Positions 55,622-63,779 of a stretch of DNA of 64,000 nt are shown here, piece after piece; within the stretch, counting starts at the first letter, position 1, and the number at the start of each line of letters is the position of its first letter. The notes beneath the pieces are model-generated. The model saw only the letters and a list, made by a program, of their open reading frames with translations. It did no database searches and was not told the origin of the DNA. Origin of the DNA: Synechococcus sp. C9 (GTDB taxonomy: Bacteria; Cyanobacteriota; Cyanobacteriia; Gloeomargaritales; Gloeomargaritaceae); contig NZ_JALAAD010000001.1 of NCBI RefSeq assembly GCF_022984075.1, positions 2,740,501-2,804,500 of the forward strand, read 5' to 3'. Made by a program: the position numbers and the translations under genes.

Positions 55622-55729
55622 CACCTGAGCACCTCCATCACAATCTGTATTGAATTGATAGTAATTTTAAGACATTTTTGCTCCCACAGCGTCATGATAC
55701 TCCTGTCCCGAAACGCTCATTGGAATAAC

Positions 55730-55855
55730 TATAGCAATCCTAAATGAAAATAGAATAGGGGTCGCAGGGGCACCGCCCCCGTCCTTGGTTTTTTAGAATT
55801 TCTGTATGCCTACAGCACGCAAACTAACGTCACTCGAATTAGGATCGCAATATAT
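55730..55855 (+). repeat. Family-1 MITE-like repeat, long form
   Basis: Left end TATAGCAATCCTAAATGAAA; right end TTAGGATCGCAATATA. It carries the long-form segment ATGCCTACAGCACGCAAACT. The core is GGGGTCGCAGGGGCACCGCC. Confidence 0.75.
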
Positions 55856-55912: not shown

Positions 55913-56031
55913 GGGAACCTCTATTTATTTGAACCAATCATCAATCCCATCGTGGGAATGCCCATATTACCCAGAACCAAGGGCGGGGGTGCCCCCCTGC
56001 GACCGCTAACTTTGAATTTATAGAGGTGCCC
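55913..56031 (+). repeat. Family-2 MITE-like repeat
   Basis: Left GGGAACCTCTATTTATTTGA, right TATAGAGGTGCCC, core CCAGAACCAAGGGCGGGGGT. The left TIR has one mismatch. Confidence 0.65.
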
Positions 56032-56130
56032 TCCTTTTAGGACAGGGTTTTTAAGTAAAAGCGAATGTCGCAAACTTGTTTGAAACTACTATATCAGTAA
56101 TCTGGGAATATGCTCAAAATTACGCCACAG

Positions 56131-56144: not shown

Positions 56145-56199
56145 GTATTTGCGGGATATGGTTAAACTGCACCCTCGAAAAAATGATGATCAACCCGAT

Positions 56200-56640
56200 T
56201 TATTGCCTCTGCCATTGGTTACCAGTTAGGACAAATTTTTGGTCATAAACTTCATCATCCCTCGATGAAACCTGCCTGATGATTACATTATCTTTAATCG
56301 TCCATTTTTCATCCCATCTATTATTTCGATTCAGGTCAATTTTAACACGATTCCAGCGATTGAATCCCGCATCCCGATAAAGATTAACCTTGTAGTTACG
56401 ACCTGGTAGTGCATCCTTGATCTTATCAGTGTTGGCGTTGGGACTCCGGATTAAATCCAAAACCTCCCTATCAACTGTTCGGAGATGAACGCTCTGAGCA
56501 TAGGCGGGAGAATTGAACTTAAAAATATAGGACTGATTACTCGGAGAATGTACAATAATTAAGTCGGTTATGAATAGTGCTACAAAACTCCCAACAATAC
56601 CTACAGCACTGTTAACAATACTTGCTCTAGTTAGTTCCAT
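56200..56640 (-). CDS. Small membrane-anchored protein, last gene of the radical-SAM operon
   Basis: A 146-residue protein. Residues 8-30 are one hydrophobic segment (IVNSAVGIVGSFVALFITDL), so it is anchored or has an uncleaved signal. A short linker contains SPAYAQSVHLRTVDREVLDL. The C-terminal half, with YKVNLYRDAGFNRWNRVKID followed by LNRNNRWDEKW, has an Asp/Asn-rich loop (DLNRNNRWDE) reminiscent of a calcium-binding loop. AAGGAG lies just before the ATG; the gene starts four bases after the upstream stop. I do not recognise a named family. It is a candidate substrate or partner of the operon's enzymes. Confidence 0.7.
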   Translation of the reverse strand: MELTRASIVNSAVGIVGSFVALFITDLIIVHSPSNQSYIFKFNSPAYAQSVHLRTVDREVLDLIRSPNANTDKIKDALPGRNYKVNLYRDAGFNRWNRVKIDLNRNNRWDEKWTIKDNVIIRQVSSRDDEVYDQKFVLTGNQWQRQ

Positions 56641-56643
56641 AAC

Positions 56644-57504
56644 CTACTCCTTGATAAACATCATGTTACGTTCAATCGGAACAGTACAGTTACAGTAACT
56701 GTACAAGCAAGGGCGAGGCGTGTCAAACAATTGTAAAGAACCTGCAAGAATGTTACCTAAATACTCTTTTCGGTAGCGTCTCGCAGGGTAACACCGCCAT
56801 GCCTCTCCCCGATCATCTAAGGTAAAATACCTGCTACCAGCCCAACACAATCTTCCCTTAAAATTAAACACTATTTCCTGTAATTGATTATGACCACCTA
56901 ATTTTTTTAATAACAATTCTTCTTCGGGAGAATATTTGATTACTTCACGATCCTGTTTTTCTGGTTGAATCTTAAAGGTAATTTGATGTGAGGTAAACCA
57001 GTTATGTAAAAACACCAAATGAGGCAAATTATCTCTAGTAGCGACACAGGTCACATTGACACTAGAATGTATGGGTATATGAGACTGTAACCAATTAATT
57101 TTATTGGTAAACTCCAGTAGGGCTGATTCAGTATTGACATACTCTCTATGCAAACTGATAGAAAACACCTTGAGATGATCACCTACGGCTCCTAAAAAAC
57201 TGCTCAGCCTAGAAATGGTGGCAGAAAAGTTAGAAACAATGCTTACATAGTGCCCTAAACTAACAATCCCCGCTACCAATTCAGTTAATTGCGGATGCAA
57301 AAATGGTTCTCCCCCAGATAACTTTATCTCCCATTTACCTGATAATTGAGCAAAAGTTCTCAAGAAAGCCTCTATTTCTCCCCCCCGTCTCGTTCGATCT
57401 TTCAGATGACGTTGTGTACAGTAGGAACAACGATAGTTACACGCTGTATTGATATTCCAGGTAATTACCCCTCCTAAAGATTCAGCAAAATCCTTACTGT
57501 TCAT
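56644..57504 (-). CDS. Radical SAM protein with SPASM-like C-terminal cysteine set (paralogue B)
   Basis: A 286-residue radical SAM enzyme. The SAM-cluster motif is CNYRCSYC (CxxxCxxC), followed by the GGE motif KLSGGEPFLHP that binds the methionine end of SAM. The C-terminal block CWAGSRYFTLDDRGEAWRC to CLYSYCNCTVP carries five cysteines, arranged as in auxiliary-cluster (twitch/SPASM) domains. It is clearly homologous to the next upstream gene, with the same C-terminal pattern. ATG 57504 is preferred and overlaps the upstream stop by 11 bp. The substrate is unknown. Confidence 0.82.
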   Translation of the reverse strand: MNSKDFAESLGGVITWNINTACNYRCSYCTQRHLKDRTRRGGEIEAFLRTFAQLSGKWEIKLSGGEPFLHPQLTELVAGIVSLGHYVSIVSNFSATISRLSSFLGAVGDHLKVFSISLHREYVNTESALLEFTNKINWLQSHIPIHSSVNVTCVATRDNLPHLVFLHNWFTSHQITFKIQPEKQDREVIKYSPEEELLLKKLGGHNQLQEIVFNFKGRLCWAGSRYFTLDDRGEAWRCYPARRYRKEYLGNILAGSLQLFDTPRPCLYSYCNCTVPIERNMMFIKE

Positions 57505-58336
57505 ATTCAATCATCCCTCGATTAGCAGGTACAGTGCAAGGACAAATGGTATAGGGACAGGGTTGGGAATTATTCCACAATTTGACACTTTCTTGGAAAA
57601 CATTACCTAAATAGCCTTCTTTATAACGCTTAGCAGTGCGACAGGACCAAGCATTACCAAACTGGTCTAGGATAAAATAATCAACACCTGCCCAACATTG
57701 ATAGCCATAGTAACTAGGAGATAAATTTGCCTGTTTGGAATTTGGTTTATCGCCAATAAGTAGTGGCAAAATCTCTCGGTCGGATTCGCTATAATTAAAT
57801 GTTCCTGTTTTAGTCTTTAACCACTGAGGGAAATAAATAAAACCTGCCGACTCGATTTCATTTTTTACTTCTAGTAATTCTGCCAAAGTTGTGGGCACGA
57901 GTACGCTATTGACTACAATTGTTACTTCCTGGGGTAATAAGGAACGTAAGTATTTTAGTTTAGTTAAGAAAGGTTTGAGACTGACAAATTCACGATGCAG
58001 ACTCGCAGAAATGATATTAATTTTGTGTCCTATTAGTTTGCAAAATTTTGATAAAGTATGAGGAGAAGCAGATAGATTAGTCAGTACAGAAATACGATGA
58101 TTTAGCTGAGCTAACCCAGGTATAACTTGATTCATAAAACCAGGAAAAGCAAAGGGTTCGCCTCCAGACATTTTAATTTCCCATTCCCCTTCTAGGTGGC
58201 TAAAGAATCTTAAAAATTTATCTATTTCTTCAGATGTAGGATAACCTTGACGATATTTAGGGGATTGGATGCAATAAGAACAATTATAATTGCATATTCC
58301 ATTAGTTTGCCACTCGATGGTGCGCTGACGTTTCAT
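57494..58336 (-). CDS. Radical SAM protein with SPASM-like C-terminal cysteine set (paralogue A)
   Basis: A 280-residue radical SAM enzyme. Cluster motif CNYNCSYC, GGE motif KMSGGEPFAFPGF. The C-terminal block CWAGVDYFILDQFGNAWSC to CPYTICPCTVP matches paralogue B. ATG 58336 overlaps the upstream stop by four bases (ATGA) and has GGAGGCAGAG upstream. Tandem duplicates with a shared auxiliary-cluster motif suggest two related modifications, or a heterodimer. No known name fits. Confidence 0.82.
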   Translation of the reverse strand: MKRQRTIEWQTNGICNYNCSYCIQSPKYRQGYPTSEEIDKFLRFFSHLEGEWEIKMSGGEPFAFPGFMNQVIPGLAQLNHRISVLTNLSASPHTLSKFCKLIGHKINIISASLHREFVSLKPFLTKLKYLRSLLPQEVTIVVNSVLVPTTLAELLEVKNEIESAGFIYFPQWLKTKTGTFNYSESDREILPLLIGDKPNSKQANLSPSYYGYQCWAGVDYFILDQFGNAWSCRTAKRYKEGYLGNVFQESVKLWNNSQPCPYTICPCTVPANRGMIEYEQ

Positions 58337-59367
58337 GTTGACTCTGCCTCCAACCGTTGTTTCCATTTGAAATTCTGATTTAACTTACCGCACTGATAAC
58401 AACTATTAAAATAGTTCCCCCCCCTTAGTCGCTCCCTCAATTCTTGCCACTTTTTACCATACCAATGTTGAGAAAATGGAGCTTCCGCCAGAGAACCTAC
58501 CACAACTTCTTTTGAACAGCAGTATAAAATGGTTCCATCCACCGTAATACGACTGTAAACCCAACCCATATAACAACCAATTGATTCAATCGGGGCAGTT
58601 GCTAGAGACCCAGTGGTAACCTGCTGTTCAAATACATCCAAATTTGTTTTTACTTCTAATTTTTTAGCTATATTTTTAGCCAAGGGAATTAACAGGGTTA
58701 ATAATTCTTCTCGTTGCTCGTTGCTGATCGTCCAAATCTCAGTCCCCTCTCCTAAACTAGCGAGCTTAAAAGTAATTTGGGAGGCTTGGTAGTCATGGGC
58801 AAATTTGACCATTTCAACTAACTCTCGATAATTTTCATTTATTATTACCTGGACTTGTTTGAATCTCTTTCCTGCTGATGCAAATTCTCTTAAAATTTCG
58901 CACAATCGTTCAAAATCTTTAGGCGTTAAGTTTGGATGAAATGCGGTGTATGATTTGGGAGTAACACCATTTACTGAAATCAATAGCATATCTACATTAG
59001 ATACTAAAACACGTTCTGGATCACACTTTAAGGCATTAGTCAAAACTGTAGTGTGCCAACCGTATGCCTTACATTGAGCAATCATTTGGTAAATATAAGG
59101 ATTGAGAAACGGCTCTCCCATTCCTGATAAAATTATAGCTTGTACAGAGTTCATCCTCGCTATATCCTGTGTGAGAGAATCAAACATTTCCCAAGACATT
59201 TGTTGCTTTTTCCAGCCGTGAGAACGGGGTGTTTTTAGTGAAGGTGAGTGATCCCAACAAGTAACACAATTTGTATTACACGCATTGGTAATATCAATAT
59301 GAACTGTTTGTGGCCCAGTGTAAATACTCCCAGTTTTCATACCCAGAATATACAGATGATTTTTCAT
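58333..59367 (-). CDS. Radical SAM/SPASM-like protein (third, distinct type)
   Basis: A 344-residue radical SAM enzyme distinct from the two smaller paralogues. The cluster motif CNTNCVTC is followed by WDHSPSL, the SAM-binding motif is LSGMGEPFLNPYI, and the C-terminal cysteines are in IGCYMGWVYSRITVDG, TILYCCSKEVVVGSL and SCYQCGKLNQ, consistent with an auxiliary 4Fe-4S domain. Such proteins often modify peptides or sugars. ATG overlaps the glycosyltransferase stop by four bases. Confidence 0.82.
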   Translation of the reverse strand: MKNHLYILGMKTGSIYTGPQTVHIDITNACNTNCVTCWDHSPSLKTPRSHGWKKQQMSWEMFDSLTQDIARMNSVQAIILSGMGEPFLNPYIYQMIAQCKAYGWHTTVLTNALKCDPERVLVSNVDMLLISVNGVTPKSYTAFHPNLTPKDFERLCEILREFASAGKRFKQVQVIINENYRELVEMVKFAHDYQASQITFKLASLGEGTEIWTISNEQREELLTLLIPLAKNIAKKLEVKTNLDVFEQQVTTGSLATAPIESIGCYMGWVYSRITVDGTILYCCSKEVVVGSLAEAPFSQHWYGKKWQELRERLRGGNYFNSCYQCGKLNQNFKWKQRLEAEST

Positions 59368-60956
59368 ACAGCTTTAATCTCCTCTCTGCTCAGTTGAAGT
59401 GACATTGATAAATTGGCATCAGTTTGGTTCCAGTAGCGATGAAATACACTTAAACCTCGCCATAAACTCTCATGTTTGTCCAATAGGGTTTCTAAAAATT
59501 GGCTTACAGATGTGACGAAATTCTTATCAATTGAGAGTGGCAAAAGTCTTAAAAAAGATCGCACACCGTTATCATCATTAAAAGATAATAATAGAGGTAA
59601 CCATTCTCTAAAAGCTTCGTATACAATTTGATAGTCATGTGCTTCTAGTTTCCATCGTTTTGACCATAACAGCCACCAATCCCAACCTGTGGTTATCTGT
59701 CCTTGAGGCATACGTTCTATAAGTTTGTAAAATACTGTTGCTTTCATTTCACTGTCTTCTAACATTGATAACCCTTGATGAACAAGCTCCCAGTCCAATC
59801 CTGTTTTCTCTACTGCTTGGCAGAAATCTATAGTTAATAATTCATCAACCTCTTCTAAAAATAGTTTGGGGGCGAGCAAATGCGTAACTATTTTGGCAGT
59901 ATCTTTAGCATAGTTTTTAGGTACAAAACTTTTAGCTCTTTGAGAGAGTTCTTCCCTTTTTTTATCATCTTTCATCTGTAGGACTAAATTGTCAATATCG
60001 TCCAGAGCTAACGCAGCACCTGCTTTTACAGCAGTATTAAGTCGTTTTTGTTGGTCGTCTGCTGTCTTAGATTGACTGTAGAAGGCGGTAGGGACTCCAA
60101 CATGAAGAAGTTCATAATAGCTGTTAAAGCCAGCGGCAGAAATTGCCCAGTCTATTCCAGGGAATAAATTAACTGCCAAGGGATCATTTAACCAGGTAAT
60201 GTTTCCTCCTCTGATAGGCGTACCACGGTATAAAATTCCTGCACCAATCACTAGATGTAAATGATGATAACTTTCTAGTTGTTTGGCGAGACGATTCAAT
60301 AAATACTCAGCTTGGGAATCTCCGCCGCCGCCAGCACTCAGCCATACGGCTTGTTTCCCCTCGGGTATGCCTAAAATCTTCCGGGCTTCACTTCGTGATA
60401 GTAACTCTTCTCTTTCTCTCAGAAAGATAGGACCAACGATATCGAGTCTGTCTTTTATCTCATCAGTAAATTCTACAGGGGGTAATTCAGATTCCTTAGG
60501 TATAATGATCCGATTGTAATAGGGCAAAAAGTTATATATATCTGCTTCTTCAGCAAATTCCGGCTTTACAGACCGGAGAATAAGTACCTTCTTCGGGACA
60601 CTATCAAGAATTTGATATAATTCTCCAAAGGTGCCACAGGGAAAGGTGTCAACAATTAGAAGATCAGGATTAATTAACCCAATTGAGTGCCATATCCACT
60701 GCCTAGCGAGACGCAAATAATCTTCTTTCACAAGTTTACCTAGTTGCGCTACAGTCTTGCTCGGTATCTTAAAAGTAGCAATCCCTTCCTGAGTAGCCAG
60801 TTGAATTCCTTCAGAAGATGTGAGCAAGTAGATTTGTGGTTTTATGCCTAACAAATACAGGTATCTTTTTAGCCAGCGTAAAATACTACAAAGACGAGTA
60901 AGATGTCCTAGTCCAGACCCATTGACTCCATAAGCAACTATTTTACAGGTATTCAT
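59364..60956 (-). CDS. MurG-like (GT-B) glycosyltransferase with unknown C-terminal domain
   Basis: 530 residues. The N-terminal 370 form a GT-B glycosyltransferase: YGVNGSGLGHLTRLCSILRW (GxGHxxR acceptor loop), PDLLIVDTFPCGTFGELY, VWLSAGGGGDSQAEYLL, and the donor site WAISAAGFNSYYELLHVGVP. The last 150 residues (from about LLTIDFCQAVEKTGLDWELV) are helical and not part of MurG. The start ATG overlaps the upstream stop as TGATG, with AAGGAGA as ribosome-binding site. Donor and acceptor unknown; a cytoplasmic sugar transfer to a peptide or lipid is inferred. Confidence 0.75.
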   Translation of the reverse strand: MNTCKIVAYGVNGSGLGHLTRLCSILRWLKRYLYLLGIKPQIYLLTSSEGIQLATQEGIATFKIPSKTVAQLGKLVKEDYLRLARQWIWHSIGLINPDLLIVDTFPCGTFGELYQILDSVPKKVLILRSVKPEFAEEADIYNFLPYYNRIIIPKESELPPVEFTDEIKDRLDIVGPIFLREREELLSRSEARKILGIPEGKQAVWLSAGGGGDSQAEYLLNRLAKQLESYHHLHLVIGAGILYRGTPIRGGNITWLNDPLAVNLFPGIDWAISAAGFNSYYELLHVGVPTAFYSQSKTADDQQKRLNTAVKAGAALALDDIDNLVLQMKDDKKREELSQRAKSFVPKNYAKDTAKIVTHLLAPKLFLEEVDELLTIDFCQAVEKTGLDWELVHQGLSMLEDSEMKATVFYKLIERMPQGQITTGWDWWLLWSKRWKLEAHDYQIVYEAFREWLPLLLSFNDDNGVRSFLRLLPLSIDKNFVTSVSQFLETLLDKHESLWRGLSVFHRYWNQTDANLSMSLQLSREEIKAV

Positions 60957-62428
60957 CAGGAAATATCTCCTTCATAGATAGAACGTGAAGATTCTCTGCG
61001 TCTTATGATGCGCCTTGAGCGTCGCCTAGAACGTCGTCTAGGAATATCATCAGTAATGGTACGTTCCTGAAGGAATTCTGGATCAGAGGTGTAATCATCA
61101 GGGATTCCACTTTCCTCAAAGGATTCTAAATCAGAGATGTCATCTAAATCTAAATTAGGATCATCATGAGTCATAACTGTCCACCAAGGAACATTTTGAT
61201 TGTAGTCATAGAGTTCATAGTCTCTGAAATTCACAATTGATTCTCTAGCTTGTGTGTAGCGCATGGAATTTTCCCTAATCCTCTGGGCAGGATTTTTTAT
61301 CCACATATTTGCATCACTCGCAGGGATGTTCACATCCTGATTTTTTGTGCGAGAGTATTTGGTAATTTTTTTGCGTAATTTCTGTAATTTTGTTTCTAAT
61401 TGAGAGATGCGGGGTTGGAATCCTTTTTGTGCTATTTCATCCATATATTCTGCTTTTTTCTCTAGTCCATGCAGACACTTAATCATATTGGCAATTTCTG
61501 GTTCTGCCTGCGCACGTCTGCATAATTCACTGCGGTCAATATACTGTAAATGATCTTTTAATGCCTGACGACACTGGCGCAGATAGACTTCTTCTAAGGT
61601 ATTGAGTTCTCTAATTACTCTCTCTCTTTGTTTGACATTATCTTCAATAGCTCTTATTTGGGCTTTAATTGGTTCAACAATACGATTCATTTCATCTAAG
61701 CGACTTCGTAAATCACGATAGTGGTTGGCTACATCGATAAAGGATTTTTGGTTGAACTTCCTGGCTGTCAAAATTGCCCAAAGCCAATGTTGGTAATAGG
61801 TTATATTCCACCACCTCCCGGTGTAAGTATAGCTATTGGTGCCGTAATTACAACGATAGAGGGTCATAAAACGTCTGTCATTCTCGTAGAGGTTAACCGC
61901 TCGCATCAATGGAGAAATCGTTTGGTTATATTCTGCTAGTTGCACTTTTAGTTGTCCACTCGGCTCTACTTCTCTGCGTCTTTGATACAATTCACTAGTC
62001 TCAAGCATCTGCAGTTCGTATTCTAAATTTCTTCTTGTTTGCTCCAAACTAGCGATAGGATTTTCAAAATCAAATCTACTGTAGCCTGTCAGCGGATTTA
62101 TTCTGGCAATTACGTCTGGGTCTAGAGATGGCAGATACGAATTAACTAAATTAGAAAGTGTTAGTTGAATATCACTGTTTAATTTTCTTTCTGTCTCTAT
62201 GGTTTCATTATATTCTCGTTTTAGGGAATTTAATAATTCAGCTATTTCTGTTTCTATGCTACGGGCTCTCCTGACAAATTCTGACCCTCTGACGTATCTA
62301 TTGGAAAAGTAACCATTACCCCGATTAGTGCCTTCCAAATTCCTGCGGTCACCTCTAGCAGAAGAGCGTAAATATTCAACGAAAATTCCTATTACAGCAA
62401 TTAATAAAAAAATAATAATAAATCCCAT
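60956..62428 (-). CDS. Membrane-anchored coiled-coil protein, first gene of the operon
   Basis: 490 residues. The N-terminus MGFIIIFLLIAVIGIFVEYL is one membrane helix. Long coiled-coil stretches follow (EIAELLNSLKREYNETIETE; LKDHLQYIDRSELCRRAQAE). A central aromatic block NSYTYTGRWWNITYYQHWLW is unlike a coil. The C-terminus is first acidic (DPNLDLDDISDLESFEE), then Arg-rich (RRRSRRRSRRIIRRR). It looks like a scaffold or receptor tethering the soluble enzymes. No homologous family is recalled. Confidence 0.65.
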   Translation of the reverse strand: MGFIIIFLLIAVIGIFVEYLRSSARGDRRNLEGTNRGNGYFSNRYVRGSEFVRRARSIETEIAELLNSLKREYNETIETERKLNSDIQLTLSNLVNSYLPSLDPDVIARINPLTGYSRFDFENPIASLEQTRRNLEYELQMLETSELYQRRREVEPSGQLKVQLAEYNQTISPLMRAVNLYENDRRFMTLYRCNYGTNSYTYTGRWWNITYYQHWLWAILTARKFNQKSFIDVANHYRDLRSRLDEMNRIVEPIKAQIRAIEDNVKQRERVIRELNTLEEVYLRQCRQALKDHLQYIDRSELCRRAQAEPEIANMIKCLHGLEKKAEYMDEIAQKGFQPRISQLETKLQKLRKKITKYSRTKNQDVNIPASDANMWIKNPAQRIRENSMRYTQARESIVNFRDYELYDYNQNVPWWTVMTHDDPNLDLDDISDLESFEESGIPDDYTSDPEFLQERTITDDIPRRRSRRRSRRIIRRRESSRSIYEGDIS

Positions 62429-62538
62429 GATGGCTGTCCCGCAAAGTTGTAGTGCATCTTATGATATGCTAGACTTAAAACCTATAGTAATGTGATTTTT
62501 TTACTTTCATTTTAGATTTATTAGATTTAGTGCTTGCA

Positions 62539-62629: not shown

Positions 62630-62645
62630 ATATCTACAATCTTTA

Positions 62646-62753
62646 GGGCACTTCTATTTATTGCCACCACTGGAAGATTATTTCGCTAAAATTCCTATAT
62701 TATCGAGAACCAAGACGGGGGCTACGCCCCTGCGACCCATTTTAGAAGTGCCC
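62646..62753 (+). repeat. Family-2 MITE-like repeat, perfect ends
   Basis: GGGCACTTCTA and TAGAAGTGCCC are exact inverted repeats. The core is GAGAACCAAGACGGGGGC and ACGCCCCTGCGACCC. Confidence 0.8.
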
Positions 62754-62856
62754 TTTAGAGAGTGCAATATCAATACCAGATAGTGCTATTTACAGTGGTC
62801 AAAATTAAGAATAGCGTGCCCTTGTCGTCATCGGTCAGGGTTGTATAATTGCATTT

Positions 62857-63432: not shown

Positions 63433-63779
63433 GGCTGATCCCATGCTCTAGCGTAAGATTAATGGGCAGGTGAGTTCATACAAAGTAAGCGTTCACAAGG
63501 GCGCAACGCCGGTGTCCCTAAAGTTTGGCAAGACCAGAAATCAATTTTTATTAGTTCCAATAAATAATGATGTCCTTATGACCGCTTAGATATAGCAGTC
63601 CTAAATGAGAATGGAACAGGGGTCGCAGGGGCACCGCTCCCGTACTTGGTTCTGGAAAATTGCTGTTTGTTAATCAAGTAGGATTGCTATAGCTTTGATT
63701 GACTTATTCGTTACGATGTCCTAGGATGTGGTCAACTAAATCTATATGCAATTGTCTGCATGGTGTTAAGGAGTTTAAT
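63433..63779. other. Intergenic region before the exoprotein gene
   Basis: No supported gene. It contains an intact family-1 repeat (63591-63691) and, near the downstream gene, the ribosome-binding site AAGGAG at 63769-63774. Confidence 0.5.
63591..63691 (+). repeat. Family-1 MITE-like repeat (101 bp)
   Basis: TATAGCAGTCCTA at the left and TAGGATTGCTATA at the right, differing by one base as inverted repeats. Same length as the copy at 1080. Confidence 0.8.

Follow-up and report, generated by a model that had tools for sequence, protein, structure and literature searches.

A conserved six-gene operon with three radical SAM enzymes, a GT-B glycosyltransferase and two dedicated proteins in Synechococcus sp. 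C9, a candidate protein-maturation system

The subject of this study is a six-gene operon of Synechococcus sp. C9 (Gloeomargaritales), which lies in a window of 64,000 nucleotides (contig NZ_JALAAD010000001.1, positions 2,740,501 to 2,804,500 of the forward strand; positions below are counted from the first letter of the window). The listing of open reading frames (ORFs) shows six consecutive genes on the minus strand, running from 62428 to 56200 with no real gaps and named P0006 to P0001 in that order (Table 1). P0006 and P0005 have 1 bp in common (TGATG at 60956) and P0005 and P0004 overlap by 4 bp (ATGA), as do P0004 and P0003, given that P0003 starts with the ATG at 58336, the start which agrees with the relatives, instead of at 58366 as in the automatic ORF list; P0003 and P0002 overlap by 11 bp, with the P0002 ATG at 57504, and a 3 bp gap parts P0002 from P0001. 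A preliminary description, made from the sequence alone, had claimed a tightly coupled minus-strand unit at this place, composed of three radical SAM (S-adenosylmethionine) enzymes, a MurG-like glycosyltransferase and two membrane-anchored proteins; the coordinates and junctions bear out the unit itself. An Rfam search of the operon region gives no match.

Table 1. Features of the operon, with positions in the window
Feature	Positions	Strand	Basis
P0006, 490 aa, helical coiled coil with disordered acidic tail ending D-I-S	60956..62428	-	ORF, AlphaFold2 model, alignment
P0006 C-terminal Asp-Ile-Ser codons; last-position Ser in 44/44 relatives	60959..60967	-	ortholog comparison
P0005, 530 aa, MurG/YjiC-like GT-B glycosyltransferase with helical C-terminal extension	59364..60956	-	ORF, profiles
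P0004, 344 aa, radical SAM, CNTNCVTC and SPASM/Twitch-type cysteines C265, C283, C284, C323, C326	58333..59367	-	Pfam, alignment
P0003, 280 aa from ATG 58336, radical SAM, invariant auxiliary cysteines C..C..CxxxxCxC	57494..58336	-	alignment
P0002, 286 aa from ATG 57504, radical SAM, P0003 paralogue, cysteine pattern as P0003	56644..57504	-	alignment
P0001, 146 aa, N-terminal membrane anchor or signal and one operon-specific beta-domain	56200..56640	-	alignment, AlphaFold2
P0001 domain, residues 51-146	56203..56490	-	alignment, AlphaFold2 pLDDT ~97

On the whole, the six genes are one conserved unit. With the P0002/P0003 alignment as query, a scan of 84,980 species genomes gives 55 loci, about 49 of them in the family, and the order P0006-P0005-P0004-P0003-P0002-P0001 is kept in nearly all family loci that are not truncated, in more than 35 distinct genomes of at least five phyla. 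According to their records the hosts, mostly metagenome-assembled genomes, are Myxococcota/Deltaproteobacteria, Acidobacteria (including Blastocatellia and Chloracidobacterium), Gloeobacterales, Spirochaetes, Ozemobacteraceae, Planctomycetota and Oligoflexia. The recurrence in unrelated genomes, by which the preliminary description would recognise a system, is therefore found, and as the order is kept across Cyanobacteria, Acidobacteriota, Myxococcota, Spirochaetota and others, the set must have a selectable function. An independent route, by a profile of the unrelated P0001 domain, has matches in 29 of 284 Myxococcota genomes (27 of them strong) and in 7 of 257 Acidobacteriota. In Spirochaetota the one match among 237 genomes is in the genome on which the sample was centred, and in Cyanobacteria the one among 386 is in the window genome. 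The loci found in this way hold the rest of the operon where the contig is long enough; the exceptions are a few loci with a split operon and the very weak matches L271 and L272, which are without it. In addition, the pairwise distances of P0002-P0006 co-vary across 38 loci (r=0.75-0.87).

Some gene pairs are hardly ever parted. P0006 and P0005 are adjacent in 44 of 44 informative loci, and P0002 and P0001 are adjacent in 56 and apart in one (L113, with P0001 elsewhere in the genome), a split at L268 being excluded as an artefact of profile assignment. P0003-P0002 is broken in four loci, two of which, L116 and L278, hold one half each in a single genome, and P0005-P0004 and P0004-P0003 are broken in two loci each. 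The two pairs that hardly ever split point to a joint action of P0005 and P0006, and of P0002 and P0001. Split operons are seen at L116 and L278 (genome G662), L292, L293, L072, L098, L101 and L073; in three genomes P0002-P0001 stands as a separate pair, in one of these with P0006-P0003 on another contig, and other splits leave P0004-P0001 or P0003-P0001 blocks whose upstream genes are not nearby.

The enzymes belong to the classes first assigned to them. P0002, P0003 and P0004 all score above the Pfam Radical_SAM (PF04055) cut-off, and P0004 also above that of SPASM (PF13186), which P0002 and P0003 do not match. The alignments show the CxxxCxxC motif and a set of C-terminal cysteines to be invariant in each of the three families, this set having five members in P0002 and P0003 (in P0002 C220, C238, C266, C271 and C273), so the core and auxiliary-cluster cysteines that define the SPASM/Twitch superfamily are present, and the three radical SAM enzymes with C-terminal cysteine sets are confirmed. 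P0002 and P0003 are paralogues with 38% identity; the best structures matched by their profile are cytosylglucuronate decarboxylase and viperin, and the P0004 profile matches PqqE, BlsE and BtrN weakly. Auxiliary Fe-S clusters (SPASM/Twitch) are common to many radical SAM enzymes modifying peptides or proteins, and two of the enzymes having them are anSME, a Ser/Cys dehydrogenase, and BtrN, an alcohol dehydrogenase (PMC6231123, PMC8326336). Distant full-length relatives of P0003 (24-31%) also occur as single genes in L024-L041, in Gastranaerophilales-like, small host-associated genomes of cyanobacterial lineage; the Gastranaerophilales-like radical SAM proteins from the gut (26-31% to P0003) were considered as members of the system and rejected as distant single genes.

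For P0005, the GT-B call of the window sequence alone is weak in Pfam (E=0.12), while a relative in L079 is above the Glyco_tran_28_C (PF04101) cut-off and the family profile matches the structures of YjiC (7.6e-9) and MurG (7.4e-7), with a recognisable C-terminal domain of the GT28/GT1-like type binding UDP-sugars; thus the GT-B class of the MurG-like glycosyltransferase stands. P0005 shares with MurG and YjiC the signature GHxxR, GGGGD, AAGxNSxxEL...P..Q..D.Q and differs from them in its long helical C-terminal extension, and its score as MurG (TIGR01133) is 13.3 bits, far under the equivalog cut-off of 250 bits. In the phylum sample, the nearest glycosyltransferase that is not of the operon family (L002:1483-2577, 36% to P0005) belongs to a non-photosynthetic cyanobacterial lineage, adjoins a membrane protein and has no radical SAM neighbours.

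The P0001 proteins are built of a positively charged N-terminus, a membrane helix, in most members a Pro/Ala-rich linker, and then one to four domains with the motif K.KD..G..KVNLY.D.G....NR.K.DLNRN..WDEKW, in which K, D, Y, R and W are invariant and two loops are acidic and DxDxD-like. The domain is modelled by AlphaFold2 with a pLDDT (predicted local distance difference test score) of ~97. A fold search against PDB and viral structures gives nothing significant, the matches to MORN/OspA-like sheets being weak, and PDB sequence profiles give nothing useful. The domain is exclusive to the operon: all 25 operon genomes have 1-4 matches each, consistent with the operon copies only, and no cyanobacterium in the sample other than the window genome has it. 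Between the window and its sister species the ratio of nonsynonymous to synonymous rates (dN/dS) is 0.40 for P0001 and 0.07-0.22 for the other five genes, all six being under purifying selection. P0001 is thus the fastest-evolving gene, and the number of its domains varies; both traits are frequent in genes for substrates. A link to the intracellular calcium carbonate of Gloeomargarita was also considered, for which the Ca-binding-like motif is suggestive; it was rejected because most of the sampled relatives are without the operon and unrelated phyla have it.

P0006 is modelled with a mean pLDDT of 86, residues 444-490 being disordered, and neither a fold search against PDB nor PDB sequence profiles give a useful match. 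Neither P0006 nor P0001 has a Pfam, NCBIfam or PADLOC family, so the operon brings two families new to these libraries and without a solved-fold match. In the family alignment only the Gloeomargarita proteins have the N-terminal membrane helix and the Arg-rich tail seen in the window; all other members begin directly in the coiled coil, and the P0006 of other phyla is soluble, without a membrane helix. The claim of two membrane-anchored proteins therefore holds in the Gloeomargarita lineage, while elsewhere P0006 is soluble.

The orthologues of P0006 have a mean identity of 25% and their last 30 residues are poorly aligned, the tail being unconserved. The last residue is Ser in all 33 orthologues of the first set, with D (27), Y (5) or E (1) at position -3, and the frequency of Ser in these tails is 9%. 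Later loci, found via P0001 or P0004, give 6 of 6, 1 of 1 (with F at -3) and 4 of 4, so that a C-terminus (D/Y/E/F)-x-Ser is present in 44 of 44 genomes in all, 11 of them found after the pattern was noticed and about 41 of them independent when the near-identical pairs (window/L071, L078/L114 and L290/L291) are considered. A terminal Ser is found in 21 of 224 other operon proteins. In the first set the Ser codons are TCN (28) and AGC (5), and the stops TGA, TAA and TAG are all present; the use of both Ser codon boxes and all three stop codons shows that the terminal Ser is due to selection on the protein and rules out a by-product of start/stop overlap, which is also excluded by loci in which the next gene follows after 66-75 bp. 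This invariant Ser, the operon-exclusive P0001 domain of one to four copies and the soluble, ancestral form of P0006 are new beyond the preliminary description. A small seventh gene (~110 aa, motif LDGFDP..RVGFEYITTEAGD), without a Pfam match and absent from the window, stands immediately upstream of P0006 in 14 of the loci found first, among them L078:3455-3802 (+), L079, L083, L084, L085, L112, L113, L117 and L119, and further in L252, L260 and L288.

An operon-exclusive domain, a disordered tail with an invariant end and four modifying enzymes together argue for protein maturation rather than a free pathway. We tentatively read the operon as a dedicated maturation system, in which its four enzymes modify protein substrates encoded by the operon itself, the P0006 tail, P0001 or both, and give this a rough probability of 45%. 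In the most likely arrangement the soluble helical body of P0006 would serve for recognition, as a large scaffold or leader, and the (D/Y/E/F)-x-Ser of its flexible tail would be offered to the radical SAM enzymes and P0005, while P0002 would modify or mature the one to four beta-domains of P0001 ahead of export, and P0001 would then be an envelope-anchored, outward-facing product or partner. We infer P0006 and P0001 as the substrates, and likewise the modified residues, the chemistry, the topology and the biological role. That a product, a modified protein or a small molecule, may be made and glycosylated at the membrane was proposed already in the preliminary description.

Several points weigh against the maturation of operon proteins. 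P0001 is predicted outside the cytoplasm and beyond the reach of the radical SAM enzymes, so any radical SAM modification would have to precede export, for which there are precedents in the sulfatases and the gamma subunit of quinohemoprotein amine dehydrogenase. The enzymes show no evident domain of the RRE type (a winged helix that binds leaders), their radical SAM domains beginning within ~20 residues of the N-terminus, and the conserved gene set has no dedicated exporter or protease. Sequence similarity is, moreover, no guide to function in this radical SAM subfamily (PMC6231123). Among the best matches of the radical SAM profiles in PDB are the sugar-acting cytosylglucuronate decarboxylase and BtrN, which would fit a small-molecule pathway just as well.

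Such a pathway, of a small molecule or a membrane glycolipid, is the main rival. Here P0005 would glycosylate a lipid or nucleotide-linked acceptor, while tailoring of the sugar or headgroup would fall to the radical SAM enzymes, with P0006 as assembly scaffold and P0001 as envelope receptor or carrier, both accessory, and with the P0006 C-terminus as a docking tag only. MurG-family glycosyltransferases do use lipid-linked acceptors, BlsE, BtrN and YjiC act on sugars, aminocyclitols and small aglycones, and a modification of P0006 or P0001 is something that we infer. Yet no conserved sugar-nucleotide, lipid-carrier or transport gene stands beside the operon, and it would be unusual for such a pathway to have, in nearly all copies, two proteins exclusive to the operon, one of them with an invariant C-terminal residue; we regard this pathway as somewhat unlikely. 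It is improbable, though worth weighing, that P0006 undergoes no covalent change and its (D/Y/E/F)-x-Ser is a recognition tag, such as a PDZ-like ligand, a docking peptide for P0005 or a degron, and that P0001 is the only radical SAM substrate: an invariant C-terminal residue whose carboxylate is free is typical of a recognition tag, and the hardly ever split P0002-P0001 pair and the repeated domains with their invariant residues would fit, but the conserved set has no PDZ protein, the small upstream gene is without a recognised domain, and P0001 is predicted to be extracytoplasmic. An anti-phage or other conflict system, as might be read from the pVip models scoring P0002 (4e-17), the LmuB model scoring P0006 (1e-5) and the patchy presence (27-29 of 284 Myxococcota and 7 of 257 Acidobacteriota), is very improbable, as the viperin score is 53 against 180 bits and covers the radical SAM core only, the LmuB match is to the coiled coil, P0004 has no phage match, and the flanks are housekeeping genes with no defence enrichment and no recurrent neighbour family except the small gene of 14 loci.

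By scores, the operon is not a member of the viperin, STM4011, MurG or Lamassu families. Viperin (NF038283 / PADLOC pVip) gives 53.3 and 36.3 bits against a cut-off of 180 bits, with the match limited to residues 15-122; the prokaryotic viperins are alike in the radical SAM core and unlike in that the operon enzymes have C-terminal auxiliary cluster cysteines and a fixed six-gene context. The STM4011 family (NF038073, cut-off 200 bits) matches P0002 and P0003 weakly over their full length, at 49.9 and 55.1 bits, and the Gloeobacterales orthologue at 51.4 bits, while the operon has no gene partners of the STM4011 type. Lamassu LmuB reaches 23 bits in the coiled coil only, P0006 being 430-490 aa of helices without an ATPase match. 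Closer in concept are the maturases of ribosomally synthesized and post-translationally modified peptides (RiPPs) and the anSME- and QhpD-type systems, which likewise have several auxiliary-cluster radical SAM enzymes beside small dedicated proteins, tandem substrate-like domains and operon-exclusive partner proteins. Unlike these, the operon has a ~430-aa helical, Ser-tagged protein and a folded, anchored beta-domain protein in place of leader-core peptides, so a RiPP precursor of short leader and core is not found; it is also without RRE, protease and exporter, and its GT-B enzyme is always present. The peptide aminoacyl-tRNA ligase (PEARL)/pearlin pathways of 3-thiaglutamate and ammosamide (PMC9016710, PMC12715798), with chemistry at the C-terminus of a scaffold, are the closest concept to the invariant C-terminal residue. 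The operon scaffold is, however, about 10 times longer, the enzymes are others, and no PEARL family is found among the operon genes or the recurrent neighbours. Neither the family libraries nor the open-access papers searched contain an entry or description combining these features, in agreement with the preliminary description, to which no described system with this gene set was known.

The anSME and BtrN dehydrogenations make oxidation of the terminal Ser a concrete but speculative idea. By analogy, an alcohol dehydrogenation of this kind may turn the P0006 Ser into a reactive carbonyl. It is a doubtful but specific proposal that the Ser is oxidised and/or glycosylated by the radical SAM trio and the GT-B enzyme, and then transferred, released or displayed via P0001, as a new class of protein-tail natural product or conjugation. 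If true, this would be a categorically new maturation system across several phyla; and if the three radical SAM enzymes and the glycosyltransferase do act on a dedicated protein, it would be a new type of substrate for radical SAM chemistry.

As to the origin of the operon, its G+C content is 37-40%, against 52-59% across most of the window. The low base composition noted before is thus real, but similar stretches lie at 19-22 kb and 44-47 kb, so that the composition of the operon alone is not special. The same block (window 56199-62520) is found in the sister species, Gloeomargaritales cyanobacterium VI4D9, with 91.8% DNA identity and at another genomic site, ordinary flanking genes of the two having 87-96% identity; any acquisition is therefore older than the split of the two species. 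In the genus the operon is patchy (2 of 8 family genomes), and in a concatenated tree the window and its sister group with Gloeobacterales and then Acidobacteriota. The notion of an acquired system is hence partly kept, as the atypical composition and patchy presence agree with it, while the closest relatives, from another early-branching cyanobacterium and from Acidobacteriota, and the divergence like that of flanking genes do not. No close relatives of the operon were found on plasmids or phages; P0004 has no phage relative and distant plasmid relatives only, and in IMG/VR the radical SAM matches are distant singles and P0005 has none. A transposable or plasmid unit was considered, and mobility is not supported, the flanks in the sister being equally scattered and diverged and the nearby repeats abundant genome-wide. 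These are interspersed repeats of 100-120 bp, partly palindromic and similar to miniature inverted-repeat transposable elements, which flank the operon on both sides (window 55726-55852, 55913-56032, 62645-62754 and 63587-63692) and have dozens of copies in Gloeomargarita-type genomes. Near the operon in the sister species, at L055:15846-16706, two ORFs resemble by eye a broken IS630-type transposase.

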